The position numbers were made by a program, and so were the translations under genes. Shown here piece after piece: positions 8,867 through 19,397 of a stretch of DNA of 20,041 nucleotides (within the stretch, counting starts at the first letter, position 1; each line of letters starts with the position of its first letter). The notes below the pieces were generated by a model. That model had not been told where the DNA came from, did not search any database, and saw only the letters and a list, made by a program, of their open reading frames with translations. The stretch comes from a virus. The stretch lies in IMG/VR virus record IMGVR_UViG_3300025889_001238, positions 1 to 20,041 of that record; one strand, given 5' to 3'.

Positions 8867-8993
8867 TCCTAGCTTTGGGATATTTCAGAGGCATCTCTTT
8901 CTGATAAGGAAATTGATTTCCCTCCATTTCAGCACAAATCCTTTCTTTTTCTTGAATAGATTTGTATTTTTTCATTTCAACTTGAGTAGTCAT
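8829..8993 (-). CDS. Small charged protein (54 residues)
   Basis: The product begins MTTQVEMKKYKSIQEKERIC and is highly charged and helical, with one Cys and a Gly/Glu/Lys-rich end. Its ATG overlaps the stop of the Arg/Pro-rich gene (TAATG at 8991-8995), which argues for coupled translation, and its 3' end overlaps the next small gene by 38 bases in another frame. No family is recognised. It is supported by the coupling pattern and by filling the space between its neighbours. Confidence 0.6.
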   Translation of the reverse strand: MTTQVEMKKYKSIQEKERICAEMEGNQFPYQKEMPLKYPKARNEQEQKGEGTSP

Positions 8994-9490
8994 TAGCAAG
9001 GCTTCGCTGTTTTCATAGCCGTAGCCACACCGCCTTCTGCACGACGAGCGCGACCTGAAGGCTTACCCATACCCATAGACATAGGCCTTTTGGGACGAGG
9101 AACAGGCTTACGAGGGGTTGGCCCGCCCGTTTGTATTGGACGAGAATTTGGCATAACCGTTGACTTACTAATTCCACCCATTTTTGGACGAGGCATAACA
9201 CCACCTGTCTTTGGTCTAGGGGGGCGACCGCCGGGGCTAGTAGGGCGCGGAGTTGGTCTAGCAGGACGCGCACCGCCAGTTACTGCGCCTAATAAACCAC
9301 CGGGACGGGGCATAGCACCACCTGTTTTTGGTCTGCCGGGACGCGGTGCTGGCCTAGAAGGACGCGCACCACCCGTTGTTGGCCTTTTAGGGCGCGGTGC
9401 TGGCCTGCTAGGACGCGCACCACCCGTCATAGGGCGACCACGGCGACCACGAGCCATACTTCCTCTACGATAAGTAGATCTATCTTTCAT
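8993..9490 (-). CDS. Arg/Pro/Gly-rich tandem-repeat protein, probably disordered
   Basis: The start at ATG 9490 (165 residues) is preferred over an upstream extension to 9571 because a strong GGAG site lies about 7 bases before it, inside the preceding gene. The protein is extremely basic and low in hydrophobics. TGG recurs at residues 22, 39, 56, 71, 95 and 121, each followed by a run of the type ARPSRPAPRP. The ends differ: KDRSTYRRGSMARGRRGRP at the N-terminus and RRAEGGVATAMKTAKPC at the C-terminus. It lies just after the capsid terminator among small genes. A DNA-condensing, head-decorating or RNA-binding role is possible from composition alone. The repeats make this stretch GC-rich relative to the capsid region. 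Confidence 0.75.
   Translation of the reverse strand: MKDRSTYRRGSMARGRRGRPMTGGARPSRPAPRPKRPTTGGARPSRPAPRPGRPKTGGAMPRPGGLLGAVTGGARPARPTPRPTSPGGRPPRPKTGGVMPRPKMGGISKSTVMPNSRPIQTGGPTPRKPVPRPKRPMSMGMGKPSGRARRAEGGVATAMKTAKPC
9180..9440 (-). repeat. Tandem coding repeats of about 51 bp
   Basis: Within the Arg/Pro-rich gene, blocks such as GGACGCGCACCACCCGT (plus-strand sense) recur near 9360 and 9411 with a diverged copy near 9263. The TGGAR(P) units are spaced 17, 17 and 15 codons apart. The DNA similarity is high enough to indicate tandem duplication rather than convergent composition. Confidence 0.75.
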
Positions 9491-9635
9491 TTTTGCTCTC
9501 CTTTTTACCAAAAATACGATCATAATTATCTTCGTATTTTTTACGGTTTTCGTTTTTAATATATCGCCCATTAATCCGTACAGTTCGGTTAGGGCTTATT
9601 CTTACAGGATTTGGATCATTTCCAATTTGTGGCAT
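9480..9635 (-). CDS. Small basic protein (51 residues) after the capsid gene
   Basis: The ATG at 9635 has AAGGA about 7 bases upstream. The product starts MPQIGNDPNPVRISPNRTVR and continues with an Arg/Lys/Asn-rich helix; it is hydrophilic. Its 3' end (stop TAG at 9480-9482) overlaps the start of the Arg/Pro-rich gene by 11 bases and contains that gene's ribosome site. The position immediately after the major capsid gene is a common place for head-decoration or completion proteins, but no homology is recognised. Confidence 0.6.
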   Translation of the reverse strand: MPQIGNDPNPVRISPNRTVRINGRYIKNENRKKYEDNYDRIFGKKESKNER

Positions 9636-15813: not shown

Positions 15814-15924
15814 TTATCCCATTGGTGTCAGACTGACAAGAGCATAGATCATTGTAAATGAAATAACGATACCTAAAGTATAAATTCCGTAGCTATTAAG
15901 TGGTCGCCAAATTCTATGTTTCAT
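15814..15924 (-). CDS. 36-residue single-pass membrane protein
   Basis: The product starts MKHRIWRPLNSYGIYTLGIV and has one hydrophobic helix (about 12-32) after a basic N-terminus, so by the positive-inside rule the N-terminus should be cytoplasmic. The ATG shares bases with the large-terminase stop (TAATG at 15922-15926) and the stop lies 2 bases before the portal ATG, so it fills the gap exactly. No family is recognised. A small membrane protein in the packaging module is unusual; it could be a pinholin-like or host-membrane-acting peptide, or a minor conserved small phage protein. Confidence 0.65.
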   Translation of the reverse strand: MKHRIWRPLNSYGIYTLGIVISFTMIYALVSLTPMG

Positions 15925-17606
15925 TAGTACCCAAATGTCCCGTCTGCTGGTTGATATATAGTTTGTAGTTGTAATTCTCGCATTTGGCTATAAGTATCGT
16001 TTATTCTTGGTCTAGCCATAATAAGATACCGTAAGGCATCATATGCGTGATCAGATGCCTTAGTATCTACATCTTCAGGGTTGCTTTTATCCAGAGGAAT
16101 ACTTTGAAGTTCGCGTATCAGGTTAGGACAAGTATTAAATATTTGTATTTTGGGCCTTCCGCTTTGCTGTAACTTCAGGTATTCATGGATTTGTATTTTA
16201 CCTGCAACTCTATTTTTATCTGCTCGTCGTAGCTTATGTCCAGCTTTAACAAGCGTTTCTCCTACTGTTGGGCCTGTTTGACCCGTTCTGTTCCAACACG
16301 CTGTATCTAATACGCCGGGAACGCTCATTGGATCATTTAGCTCCATTTCAGTAATCATGAAGGCTAGATCGGTTCCTAATAGACCTTTACGATATAACTC
16401 TCTATATATTATTAAAGTACCGTCATCTGGGTCTATTGCTCCCCAAACACAAGCCGATTCTGAAGCATATCCATAGTCAATTCCTTTTGTTCGTTCCCAA
16501 TGTAAAGGAATTTCAAAAGGTTCAATGACATGAAGATGCCTATCAAACTCTGTAAAGGCCGCACCTTCTGCAACCTCCCAATCACCTTCTAGTAGCTGTC
16601 TGCGTTGCGTTGGTGGCAACGCCTTCAGCATTTGTTCGTATCGTCCATCATTAGCTAAGTATGGATTATCATCTAACCTAGCCGGTATAAACTTACGGCT
16701 TAATCCATCTGCGCCTCTAAAAGATTCGTAAGGCGGTGAAGGATCAATATATCTTTTCTTTACCCAATGCGCTCCAACACCACCGGGGTTAGCGGTACAC
16801 CGCATATAAGGTATAATCTCTGGATCTGTTGTACGCAGTCGTGAAGCCAAGTAGTTCCAAGAAAACTCTGTAGCTTGGTGCGTAATCTCATCAAACCCAA
16901 TCCAACTATACGCTTGTCCTTGGTAGCGATAAACATCTGCATCTCTCTCCAAGAATCCAAATTCTATTTTAGCTCCAGAAGGAAAGTTCCAGAGCTTTTC
17001 TACTTCTTTATACTTACAACCGGGAAAGGCTTTCGGGTAAAGTTCACGAGATTTATCTATTAACTCGCGTAACTCTGGCATAGAACGCCGCAGGATCAAA
17101 GCCCTATGCGCGGCCCGATGAGCAAAACGAAGTGGATCAACCAACATCGCATAGCTCTTGCCTCCACCAGCCGCACCACCATATAAAACATCAGTCTCAG
17201 AAGCGGCGAGAAAGTCAGTTTGTGGGCCATCGTTGGGCCTAAAGATGACATTCTCTTCTGCGACAGTCCTTAACGACTTGGGCAGTGCATCAGGAGTTTC
17301 TGTTGTTATTTTGCCTTCTGCTTTAGCCTCAGTTCCTTCTAATTTTTTTAAAGTATTTTTAGAAGTGTCAAGCGACCTTTTATAGTTTTCAAGTTTGGTG
17401 CGTACCTGCGCTAACCGTTTTTCTTTCTTTCGTACTGTTTTTCTGGCTTCAATTTTGGCCTTGGTCTGGGAGTGGTAGTTGTAGCCTCTACCGGACGAAC
17501 CTTTGGGTCTGCCAGTTTTTTTACGAGGTGTTCCATCCTTTTTGAGTATGAAATCCCCGTTGTTGTCTCGCATATACGCATCTGGATTTTTATCCCAATC
17601 ATTCAT
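15924..17606 (-). CDS. terL: Terminase large subunit (ATPase and nuclease)
   Basis: This is the packaging motor that cuts DNA and pumps it through the portal using ATP. From the ATG at 17606 it has 560 residues; a TTG at 17618 would add four. Visible motifs: Walker A GGAAGGGKS (143-151), Walker B WIGFDEIT (catalytic DE 239-240), coupling motif TANPGG (271-276), and nuclease acidic residues in KGIDYGYAS (D377), VLDTACW (D434) and DHAYDALRY (D519, D523). An N-terminal extension of about 115 residues carries an AT-hook-like GRPKGSSGRG and a Lys/Arg-rich coiled coil (about 48-95), which not all large terminases have. The start overlaps the upstream gene by 8 bases. Confidence 0.96.
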   Translation of the reverse strand: MNDWDKNPDAYMRDNNGDFILKKDGTPRKKTGRPKGSSGRGYNYHSQTKAKIEARKTVRKKEKRLAQVRTKLENYKRSLDTSKNTLKKLEGTEAKAEGKITTETPDALPKSLRTVAEENVIFRPNDGPQTDFLAASETDVLYGGAAGGGKSYAMLVDPLRFAHRAAHRALILRRSMPELRELIDKSRELYPKAFPGCKYKEVEKLWNFPSGAKIEFGFLERDADVYRYQGQAYSWIGFDEITHQATEFSWNYLASRLRTTDPEIIPYMRCTANPGGVGAHWVKKRYIDPSPPYESFRGADGLSRKFIPARLDDNPYLANDGRYEQMLKALPPTQRRQLLEGDWEVAEGAAFTEFDRHLHVIEPFEIPLHWERTKGIDYGYASESACVWGAIDPDDGTLIIYRELYRKGLLGTDLAFMITEMELNDPMSVPGVLDTACWNRTGQTGPTVGETLVKAGHKLRRADKNRVAGKIQIHEYLKLQQSGRPKIQIFNTCPNLIRELQSIPLDKSNPEDVDTKASDHAYDALRYLIMARPRINDTYSQMRELQLQTIYQPADGTFGY

Positions 17607-17823
17607 ATCGGTCTGCAATCTTCTTCAGGCCCATATGCGAAATAGATCTACCAGTATCGTGTTCAAGCCACATTGCCCCTTCCCTTAAAGATAAAACTTT
17701 ATTTTTTATTAGTGGAACGACTTTGTTTAGGGCTTTTAGTTCCTCTGGTATTTCTGTTAAATGTGTACCATTTTCGTCTAGTTTGTAACCAAACGGAATG
17801 GTACTGCTAGTTCTTCTCTTCAT
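17599..17823 (-). CDS. Small resolvase-like helix-turn-helix protein beside terminase
   Basis: ATG 17823 is chosen (AAGG five bases upstream) over a TTG at 17835, giving 74 residues. The pattern PFGYKLDENGTHL, then IPEELKALNKVVPLIKNKVLSLREGAMWLEHDTGRSISHMGLKKI resembles the DNA-binding tail of serine recombinases (PxGYxxD-G, then SLREIAxWL and a recognition helix), but no catalytic resolvase domain is present. From memory, similar small proteins sit beside terminase genes in marine phages. It overlaps both neighbours, small terminase (17 bases) and large terminase (8 bases), which suggests coupled synthesis and a role in packaging-site recognition or in regulation. Function is inferred. Confidence 0.75.
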   Translation of the reverse strand: MKRRTSSTIPFGYKLDENGTHLTEIPEELKALNKVVPLIKNKVLSLREGAMWLEHDTGRSISHMGLKKIADRYE

Positions 17824-18202
17824 ATTCGCCTTCAAGTATTACTTCTTGTTTGGCTGGTAGAATGAAAAGACCATTTGATCCTTGTACATTTACATCTAGT
17901 TTGTCTGTCTTGGCTAGGCCCACACGGTCTAGGAGCGTCTGAGCGGCCTGTAAACGAACATTAGCTTGAGGTATAGGCTGTTCACTGTCCATAACCTCAA
18001 CGAGCTTTAAAGCGGCTTTGGGGGCACTCTGGGCTAATATACTTTCAGCTAGTTCAATTATTTCTGTTTTTAGTGCTTTAACTACGGATGTATAAGAGCC
18101 TTCAGCGTACCCCGCTAATTCTGCCGCCTGTTTAGCATTACCGTTACAAGACATAAGATTGTCTAAAAACGATTGCTGTTTGGTTGTCAATTCTTTTTTC
18201 AT
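17807..18202 (-). CDS. terS: Terminase small subunit
   Basis: The product is 131 residues from ATG 18202. The N-terminal LTTKQQSFLDNLMSCNGNAK followed by QAAELAGYAEGS is the classic small-terminase helix-turn-helix (LT-KQ-xF, GNA-QAA--AGY), which recognises the packaging site. A central helical region (about 45-95, AESILAQSAPKAALKLVEVM, then ANVRLQAAQTLLDRVG) would form the oligomer, and the acidic tail EGEYEEKN may contact the large subunit. The frame stays open upstream to 18481, but that part contains the promoter and has no family-like sequence, so it is excluded. It is the first gene of the leftward block. Its ATG lies 6 bases after a perfect -10 box. Confidence 0.9.
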   Translation of the reverse strand: MKKELTTKQQSFLDNLMSCNGNAKQAAELAGYAEGSYTSVVKALKTEIIELAESILAQSAPKAALKLVEVMDSEQPIPQANVRLQAAQTLLDRVGLAKTDKLDVNVQGSNGLFILPAKQEVILEGEYEEKN

Positions 18203-18208
18203 TATTAT

Positions 18209-18237
18209 ATTATATACCTGATTTACAGTTTTGTCAA
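18209..18237 (-). promoter_or_regulatory. Consensus sigma-70 promoter for the packaging/structural block
   Basis: On the minus strand TTGACA (18237-18232), a 17-bp spacer and TATAAT (18214-18209) match the consensus exactly with ideal spacing. A second TATAAT overlaps five bases downstream. The small-terminase ATG begins 6 bases after the first -10, so the expected start site falls on or next to the ATG. Confidence 0.88.
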
Positions 18238-18269
18238 GTGGTAATATATCACAATAGTCTTGACAAAAC
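18228..18269. promoter_or_regulatory. Inverted repeat and near-palindrome between divergent promoters, candidate operator
   Basis: GTTTTGTCAAG (18228-18238) and CTTGACAAAAC (18259-18269) are perfect 11-bp inverted copies 20 bases apart, each containing one -35 box. Between them GTGGTAATATATCAC (18238-18252) is a near-palindrome (five Watson-Crick pairs plus one G-T over 15 bases). A dimeric repressor or activator bound here could control both directions at once. Confidence 0.6.
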
Positions 18270-18288
18270 AAGAATTCAAGGTTATAAT
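18260..18288 (+). promoter_or_regulatory. Consensus sigma-70 promoter for the rightward transcript
   Basis: TTGACA (18260-18265), 17-bp spacer, TATAAT (18283-18288): a perfect match. Transcription should start near 18295, about 555 bases before the first rightward start codon, giving either a long structured leader or a separate non-coding RNA. Confidence 0.88.
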
Positions 18289-18294
18289 AGACTA

Positions 18295-18665
18295 TGTAGC
18301 CCACCGGGGTACATATAGACGTACAGCCCCGCCCTAGCTTTAAAGATCTTTGAAGTGGGGCGACAATCTGGTTGACATTCAAATCCTTCCAAGTTGTGCG
18401 TGAATGAGTATATATACCCCCACCCCCCCATGGCCACCTGCCCGCCCCCATACGCACTTCAAAACTCTCCAGAGTTTTCAATAACTATTGCCCCAGCCTC
18501 AGAGAACTTCAAAATATTTTAAAAATCTCTAAAGATTTTTAAAGCCCCAGCCAGAGATTTTCTAGTTTACGAAACTAGAAGGACTTTGAAGAGTGTAAAA
18601 ATTTTTAGAATTCTCAAAAGAATTCTATAGATTTCAAAAACCTACCAAAAAATAACAGTGTTATT
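18295..18665 (+). ncRNA. Candidate structured leader RNA with serial hairpins
   Basis: Perfect or near-perfect stems follow one another. CGGGG/CCCCG with an inner TAC/GTA lies at 18305-18331. The palindrome AAAGATCTTT is at 18342-18351. AAAACTCT-CC-AGAGTTTT is at 18461-18478, and AAAAATCT-CTAA-AGATTTTT at 18521-18540. TTCTAGTTT-ACG-AAACTAGAA is at 18560-18580, and TAGAATTCT-CAAA-AGAATTCTA at 18606-18627. AATAAC-AGT-GTTATT is at 18651-18665. The spacing is fairly regular in the second half. It could be an untranslated leader, a processed small RNA or DNA-level structure such as an origin. Expression is inferred from the promoter only. Confidence 0.5.
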
Positions 18666-18850
18666 ATTTGTATCTCCGAAGAATCTCAGCCAAGCGCCCA
18701 TGATCGCGTCACACACTCTGTCACAACCGCATAATGCAAGGGACAGCAGTTGACAATTTTCGAGAGCTATGCCCTTAATGGAATGGCCTTGGCGATGACC
18801 GCCTCGGCTTAACTCACATTTACGGGGCAAAGCCCTGACGGAGATTACAT

Positions 18851-19339
18851 ATGAGCAATTCAGCCATTTCATTCGACGCTACTGCTAAAGCAACCGTCAA
18901 GCAAATCTACTTCATCGGGTCACACTTCGCTAAACTAACAGGCGATACTTCGCAGGAAGTTTATGGGCTTTCAAAAGTCTTTCCTGCCGCAATGCTTAAG
19001 TGGAATGCAGAGCATTTGGATACCCCAATCACCATGGGTGATATCGACACTTGGAAGAAAGGAACTAAAGTTCCCGCCAAGTTCACCAAAATGATTCAGG
19101 TGAAAAAGCCGAAGGCTAAAGCGACACCCGCTAAAACTAAGGCAACTCCGAAGCCTACGGCTTCTCCAAAGCCCTCTGAGATGCCAATCGGTGACTTCAA
19201 AGATCACTTTGAAAAGATTACAGGCCGCGTCTTTAGGCTTGAAGAAACTTCAAAGGAACATTCAAAGCGAATGGCGACGATGGATGCCAAGCTGGATATT
19301 ATTATGGCACACATCATGGAGACTCCCGATAGCGAGTAA
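18851..19339 (+). CDS. Coiled-coil protein with Lys/Pro/Ala linker, first rightward gene
   Basis: The product is 162 residues; GGAG lies 7 bases before the ATG. There are three parts. Residues 1-80 form a folded-looking domain (KQIYFIGSHFAKLTGDTS, then LSKVFPAAMLKWNAEHL and DIDTWKKG). Residues about 85-110 are a repetitive Lys/Ala/Thr/Pro linker (KAKATPAKTKATPKPTASPK), like histone-tail-type or nucleic-acid-binding linkers. Residues about 114-155 are an amphipathic coiled coil (FRLEETSKEHSKRMATMDAK). No family is recognised. A DNA-associated early protein is possible. It is followed by a GC-rich hairpin that may attenuate transcription. Confidence 0.78.
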   Translation: MSNSAISFDATAKATVKQIYFIGSHFAKLTGDTSQEVYGLSKVFPAAMLKWNAEHLDTPITMGDIDTWKKGTKVPAKFTKMIQVKKPKAKATPAKTKATPKPTASPKPSEMPIGDFKDHFEKITGRVFRLEETSKEHSKRMATMDAKLDIIMAHIMETPDSE

Positions 19340-19348
19340 TACTATATC

Positions 19349-19369
19349 GCCCCGTTTCGGCGGGGCTTT
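19349..19369 (+). terminator. GC-rich hairpin, possible terminator or attenuator
   Basis: GCCCCG (19349-19354), a 6-base loop TTTCGG, CGGGGC (19361-19366) and then only TTT. The stem is strong but the U-run is short, so partial termination between the first and second rightward genes is the likeliest role. Confidence 0.65.
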
Positions 19370-19397
19370 CCAACCTTCTCACACAGGAAATAATATT

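Follow-up and report, generated by a model that had tools for sequence, protein, structure and literature searches.

A conserved composite control region with a palindrome array between the small terminase gene and the early genes of HMO-2011-type marine phages

Introduction

The closest described counterparts of the region reported here are the packaging initiation (pac) sites of tailed phages. In SPP1, pac overlaps the promoters of the small terminase gene, and the small terminase protein (TerS) binds pacL and pacR while the large subunit (TerL) cuts between them (PMC6316719). The TerS proteins of SF6 and SPP1 recognize bent DNA and show little specificity for individual bases (PMC4737164). 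Nearer to the present phage, position 1 of the PhiM6 genome was set at a pac cut predicted by PhageTerm (PMC6256558), and headful packaging is predicted for that phage. Apart from this predicted site in PhiM6, the papers searched on HMO-2011-type phages, a group of marine phages used here as in PMC9038755, describe no control region or non-coding RNA of the kind presented below.

A comparison of our locus with these systems shows both shared features and some significant disparities. As with the SPP1 and SF6 pac sites, it lies next to or overlaps TerS promoters, repeated motifs flank the presumed cut, and recognition need not be base-specific (PMC6316719, PMC4737164). In contrast, a palindrome array and a G/C tract that flips between strands are not described in the available part of the SPP1 literature, and the core element presented here is known from sequence alone and also turns up well away from TerS and on bacterial chromosomes. 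PhiM6 belongs to the same phage group, and its predicted cut falls about 74 bp from an apparent core; unlike our locus, it lacks a perfect promoter upstream of that core and has no dense array in the 600 bp around it, and the resemblance of the cores is weak and was recognized by eye.

Results

The leader and its surroundings

The window, by which we mean the whole 20,041-nucleotide stretch analyzed (IMG/VR record IMGVR_UViG_3300025889_001238), is assigned from its gene sequences to an HMO-2011-type marine phage. Its TerL shares 67% identity with the TerL of Pelagibacter phage HTVC115P and is also related to those of the HMO-2011, CRP, and PhiM6 phages. Head and packaging genes occupy the minus strand, including the terminase large subunit (15924-17618), portal, and capsid, and small early genes run along the plus strand from 18851 onward. 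The small terminase gene (17810-18202, minus strand, divergent from the leader) matches the PHROG TerS families with an E value of 4e-8, falls just below the Pfam cut-off for Terminase_2 (5.9e-5, 24.2 bits against a cut-off of 26.1), and weakly resembles the solved structure of a small terminase, 7joq (E = 0.0026). The first early gene (18851-19339, plus strand), supported by its ORF and by the loci of relatives, encodes 162 aa of no recognized family, with no match in PHROG or Pfam. A tRNA/tmRNA search of the window returned none. Elsewhere in the window, a repetitive ORF of 192 aa rich in proline, glycine, and arginine (8993-9571, minus strand) lies between the capsid gene and the tail genes, and a strong stem-loop with a short T-rich tail (GCCCCG-TTTCG-GCGGGGC, 19351-19370) directly follows the 3' end of the first early gene.

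The region of interest is the gap between the TerS gene and the first early gene. A preliminary description of this DNA had proposed serial hairpins in a leader without genes, and the leader (18294-18850, 556 bases) is indeed free of genes. Searches of the window leader against phage records found no nucleotide relatives; the relatives used here were gathered as 80 TerL loci and 27 loci of the early gene. Both flanking genes are present in 45 entries, several of which duplicate a contig or stand for the window, and in every one of these the gap from TerS to the early gene measures approximately 600-930 bases. About 21 contigs among the TerL loci (L004-L083) stop inside the leader, 31-611 nt after its promoter P1, far above the expectation for random ends, and these probably represent assembly breaks at the array. 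The leader is a composite control region from which the late (TerS, TerL, and head) and early operons diverge, and it consists of three separable parts: P1 with a 5'-terminal hairpin, a conserved core, and a palindrome array.

Structure in the leader exceeds chance, as had been proposed. RNA folding of 18294-18850 gave a z-score of -6.15 against dinucleotide-shuffled controls, and no shuffle was as good; 18294-18670 gave -5.32, again with no dinucleotide shuffle equaling it, and the opposite strand gave -3.5. The hairpins listed earlier all exist, with five in the array, one at the RNA start, and an additional imperfect one at 18338-18355. The description of 18295-18665 as a row of hairpins holds for the array part but not for the first 160 bases (18295-18455), which are not hairpin-rich and hold the conserved core. 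Short repeats of ACTTCAAA (18456 and 18506) and CCCCAGCC (18490 and 18544) are likewise present, but relatives do not conserve them, and they are probably incidental.

Promoters and the 5'-terminal hairpin

Two perfect sigma-70 promoters lie back to back at 18260-18288 (plus strand) and 18237-18209 (minus strand), each with a 12/12 match. The first, P1 (TTGACA-17-TATAAT), is the perfect promoter previously noted just before the leader; it is matched in most of the 80 TerL loci, and several of the remainder end before the P1 position. The second (18209-18237) points towards TerS and is kept in relatives. The -10 box of the TerS promoter sits very near the TerS start codon (18202-18214), and so the TerS mRNA appears to be leaderless.

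The predicted P1 transcript begins with a hairpin, UAUGUA-g-CCC-acc-GGG-UACAUA (18293-18315, plus strand), whose stem recurs in relatives. Across 65 leaders it starts mostly 4-9 nt past the -10 box, and its sequence varies while the stem is kept (UAUGUA/UACAUA, GUAACACC/GGUGUUAU, UUGUACC/GGUACA, and others), with G-U accounting for 36 of 500 pairs. Of 48 leaders, 39 show better folding of this hairpin on the transcribed than on the opposite strand (p = 2e-4). This 5'-terminal hairpin behaves as an RNA feature. In HTVC033P both P1 and the hairpin are kept although the next annotated gene is convergent. Stem-loops of the ompA type at the 5' terminus of an mRNA delay its decay; compared by position, the P1 hairpin is alike in beginning at the first transcribed bases, and it is the only one of the leader hairpins that fits this type.

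Further elements lie downstream of P1. In many CTGGTAGACA-form relatives (L119, L131, L137, L145, L158, L168, and L169 among others) an intrinsic terminator, AAAGGCC-GGTG-GGCCTTTTTTT, is found at approximately +90 after P1 and before the core, so P1 may yield only a short RNA there or may be subject to attenuation. The imperfect hairpin CTTTAAAG-AT-CTTTGAAG (18338-18355, plus strand) belongs to a module that is duplicated in some relatives, and the leaders of HTVC103P and HTVC104P (L116 and L117) contain, about 330 bases further downstream, a second, degenerate version of the hairpin and motif module (CTTTGAAGCTGGG...TTGAC...CAAATC). A second promoter candidate, P2 (18750-18779, plus strand), combines TTGACA with a weak -10 box 101-104 nt before the early gene, and its TTGACA is conserved in close relatives. 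A small hairpin (18824-18836, plus strand) lies just 5' of the early gene's ribosome-binding site; the stem sequence differs in relatives yet still pairs, and this covarying hairpin has GGAG in its loop in L012 and L013.

The conserved core

The conserved block of the window (18368-18441) consists of CTGGTTGACA, GTATATATA, a 12-bp G/C tract, and CATGG-C-CACCTGC. Its first element is copy 1 of a motif with the consensus CTRGTWKACA (18368-18377, plus strand), which in most of 65 leaders lies about 40 nt before the TATATA of GTATATATA. The core itself (18408-18441), defined by pattern and profile searches, runs from GTATATATA through the 12-bp G/C tract to ATGG and CACCTGC and is a candidate packaging-initiation site. 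Among relatives the tract is approximately 12 bases long with 81% G+C and is followed by YATGG-N-CACCTGC. Of the 93 distinct leaders described below, 47 have a G-rich tract, 31 a C-rich one, and 7 a mixed one, with 8 not parsed; that of the window is C-rich. About 28 of 65 leaders have a second copy of the motif 97-229 nt past the core. The core module is unstructured, with a mean folding z-score of -1.3 in 48 relatives.

The exact core pattern occurs in at least 112 stretches of viral contigs, and the profile also matches the isolates CRP-1 (6e-7), HTVC103P (5e-6), HTVC104P (4e-5), and HTVC115P (1.4e-4). In HMO-2011 the core at approximately 53,552 scores 0.07 by profile, and the 63 bases around it match CRP-345 by blastn at 1e-5. 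Rhizobium phages I3_11 and N3_19 have weak profile scores (E = 0.02 and 0.24), and the apparent PhiM6 core, ACCCCACCC-TTGG-CCCTGCC, was recognized by eye and not found by the profile. Since HMO-2011, CRP-1, PhiM6, and N3_19 lack a perfect P1 despite their core or apparent core, the core is independent of P1; it is also present in isolates without the promoter or without the array.

Other readings of this block were rejected. A small ORF after the G/C tract (ATGGCCACC...) does not keep its reading frame in relatives. Pairing of the tract with an upstream GUGGGG or CCCACC was dismissed, as these partners do not flip together with the tract, and a second promoter formed by CTGGTTGACA and TATATA would have an excessive spacing of about 31.

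The palindrome array

Downstream of the core, the array spans 18461-18670 and contains five palindromes found by stem search and clade comparison. Palindrome 1, AAAACTCT-CC-AGAGTTTT (18461-18478), has an 8-bp stem and a loop of 2; palindrome 2, TTTAAAAATCT-CTAA-AGATTTTTAAA (18518-18543), has 11 bp and a loop of 4; and palindrome 3, TTCTAGTTT-ACG-AAACTAGAA (18560-18580), has 9 bp and a loop of 3 and holds motif copy 2, CTAGTTTACG. Palindrome 4, AAATTTTTAGAATTCT-CAAA-AGAATTCTATAGATTT (18599-18634), has a perfect 9-bp core within an imperfect 16-bp stem, and palindrome 5, CAAAAAATAAC-AGT-GTTATTATTTG (18646-18670), has 6+4 bp; three pairs in each of these last two have changed on both sides. Stems scoring 7 or more number five in 410 bases (18441-18850), or 12.2 per kb, compared with 0.41 per kb over the remainder of the window. 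A collection of 224 leaders was reduced to 93 distinct ones, whose arrays share less than half of their 16-mers, and in these strong stems occur at 2.56 per kb in the leader versus 0.106 per kb elsewhere in the same contigs, a 24-fold difference. Relatives carry up to about 10 hairpins each, with perfect stems up to approximately 30 bp, and loops are 0-4 bases long in 176 of 196 stems.

The preliminary description had named a lack of compensatory changes in relatives, folding no better than shuffled sequence, and the lack of a transcript as joint grounds for abandoning its proposal. Folding exceeds the shuffles, as shown above, and compensatory changes are present: in the window clade both sides have changed at 8 of 55 pairs, and in the L134 clade at 21 of 97, exceeding all 500 shuffles and all slid controls. 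The hairpins are genuine and evolutionarily maintained.

An RNA under selection is expected to tolerate G-U over A-C. Mismatches in 181 stems amounted to 10 GU, 9 AC, and 31 others, the 1:1:4 ratio of random mismatches, and the two strands of the array fold alike (z-scores of -6.85 and -6.43, p = 0.14). With G-U no more common than A-C and the strands folding equally, the array is unlike a selected RNA, and arrays that covary while being strand-symmetric warn against taking compensatory change by itself as proof of an RNA. The window clade alone, with 6 GU pair columns versus 1 AC, gives a hint of RNA selection on the array. The positive control for this test, 16S/23S rRNA, supplied too few stems to calibrate it well and gave 7 GU and 1 AC at the loosest setting. 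Rfam searches returned only chance miRNA matches for the window stretch and nothing above the gathering threshold for 11 relatives; neither CsrA-type GGA loops nor identical repeats like those of type III antitoxins were seen.

The array is a feature of the marine group but is not universal, being near-absent in HTVC115P and around the PhiM6 core, and it is weak in HMO-2011, where six 6-bp stems in 554 bases represent a 5.5-fold enrichment over the genome. We infer that the palindromes are a DNA-level feature associated with the core rather than an ordinary non-coding RNA. In yeast, template switching is known to perfect imperfect palindromes in highly transcribed DNA (PMC3820800). By a comparable route, template switching between arms could keep the palindromes perfect in an exposed, strongly transcribed stretch; alternatively or additionally, they may be selected as extruded hairpins near a cut and not for an RNA function.

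Core copies in bacterial chromosomes

Twenty-one solo copies of the core were found in chromosomes of marine Gammaproteobacteria (G002, with L359, L362, and L379-L383; G001, with L356; G009, G011, G013, G015, G016, G061, G063, and G092). One assembly holds 10 of them, a Halieaceae assembly holds 2, and each of eight further related genomes has 1-3; several of these genomes are metagenome assemblies. These copies carry neither P1 nor the array and lie between ordinary genes; one is approximately 110 bp from the 3' end of a tmRNA gene and others are near tRNAs. Three pairs of copies share an orientation at distances of 1-10 kb, and one pair is head to head. A prophage origin was rejected, as 9 of the 10 copy-bearing genomes have no relative of TerL. 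A satellite origin was likewise set aside: phmmer searches with the HMO-2011 integrase and the window TerS and TerL, the queries used, found none of these proteins nearby. The copies would fit remnants of helper-dependent elements in marine Gammaproteobacteria such as the PICMI phage satellites (PMC10803314); unlike that case, no satellite genes were found near the core copies, and the packaging sites of PICMI themselves have not been identified (PMC10803314).

Discussion

We tentatively read the core as a pac-type packaging-initiation site in DNA beside the TerS gene, with an associated palindrome array and an RNA-capped early transcript, a reading to which we give somewhat less than an even chance. 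TerS would bind the core through the repeated CTRGTWKACA motifs on either side, the rigid TATATA and G/C tract would be read by shape and not by base, TerL would cut slightly to the right of the core, and packaging would then run leftwards through TerS. The strand-flipping of the G/C tract would be allowed if TerS reads the shape of bent DNA, as in SF6 and SPP1. In the window family the core is approximately 210 bp from the TerS start, and in PhiM6 the apparent core lies, in leader orientation, between the predicted cut and TerS. PhiM6 has a 2.5-kb stretch without annotated genes from TerS to the first early gene (L226/L227; 66224-68176 and 1-600). Two circular Rhizobium phage records, N3_19 and I3_11 (both with weak core profile matches), start inside the core, as does N3_13 judging by alignment; as the paper on these phages gives no reason for the start point, this is one supporting hint. 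Against a pac site are the distance of 5 kb or more between the core and TerS/TerL in HMO-2011 and CRP-1, the diffuse contig ends without a single cut point, and the solo chromosomal copies, which a pac site does not explain. A cos site was rejected, as contig ends scatter over the leader and assemblies read through the core.

The preliminary description had suggested a non-coding RNA or an origin, and the evidence bears this out in part: covariation and folding agree with it, while the array is strand-symmetric and the most conserved part is unstructured and DNA-like. As a structured leader RNA, the region would give rise to a transcript of approximately 500 nt from P1, whose hairpins would shield it from nucleases and Rho, be targets of RNase III processing, or interact with a protein. 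The perfect and conserved P1, the hairpin at its start site with RNA-like strand asymmetry, the covarying array with its tight loops, the retention of P1 and hairpin in HTVC033P, and the GU excess in the window clade all speak for such a transcript, but neither strand preference nor G-U tolerance is seen across 51-93 arrays, no Rfam family matches, subgroups have no common RNA fold, and the conserved core is unstructured, leaving this reading, roles included, rather doubtful. A replication origin, in which host RNA polymerase from P1 would prime DNA synthesis near the TATATA and G/C tract and the palindromes on the exposed strand would be used by the primase or replisome, is unlikely. It would suit the divergence point of the genome, a strong promoter, an alternating AT tract beside a G/C tract, DNA-level hairpins, and a group that encodes a primase, a helicase, and a family A polymerase of its own (PMC9038755). 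However, about one third of leaders have the C-rich side of the tract on the transcript strand, which strongly disfavors an RNA G-quadruplex or R-loop primer with G-tract arrest like that of mitochondrial CSB II, and PhiM6, N3_19, HMO-2011, and CRP-1 have no perfect P1. The region may be an origin, but nothing singles that role out, and the published PhiM6 prediction favors a packaging site, PhageTerm reporting virion ends and not origins.

Neither a pac site, an origin, nor an RNA accounts for the chromosomal copies, and a role related to recombination or satellites is the natural guess for them. A site-specific recombination or mobile-element site, with the core and flanking GTWKACA as an attachment-type site for a tyrosine recombinase or for satellites, would account for dispersed copies, some near tRNA and tmRNA genes, and for the same-orientation pairs that flank 1-10 kb, and repeated GTAGACA motifs follow some copies. 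HMO-2011 carries an integrase gene and CRP-3 can integrate (PMC9038755), but subgroups IV to X lack an integrase (PMC9038755), which means that a recombinase is not a general property of these phages. The low-sensitivity phmmer search with the HMO-2011 integrase found no integrase near the chromosomal copies, and a G/C tract that flips between strands would be unusual in a crossover site; for the phage leader we consider this explanation quite improbable. A broader and highly speculative possibility, which we hold to be very unlikely, is that the core is a transferable recognition site common to HMO-2011-type phages and marine Gammaproteobacteria, through which phages or satellites would mobilize host segments, with the self-perfecting array marking exposed or cut DNA.

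Conclusions

In conclusion, the composite region between TerS and the first early gene is genuine and conserved and has apparently not been described before. A transferable recognition site, if true, would be a site of DNA exchange between phage and host of a new type. HMO-2011-type phages are reported to be widespread and dominant in the ocean, and a short profile built on the core and its fixed motif spacing marks the proposed packaging site in those contig stretches, at least 112 in number, and in several cultured isolates.
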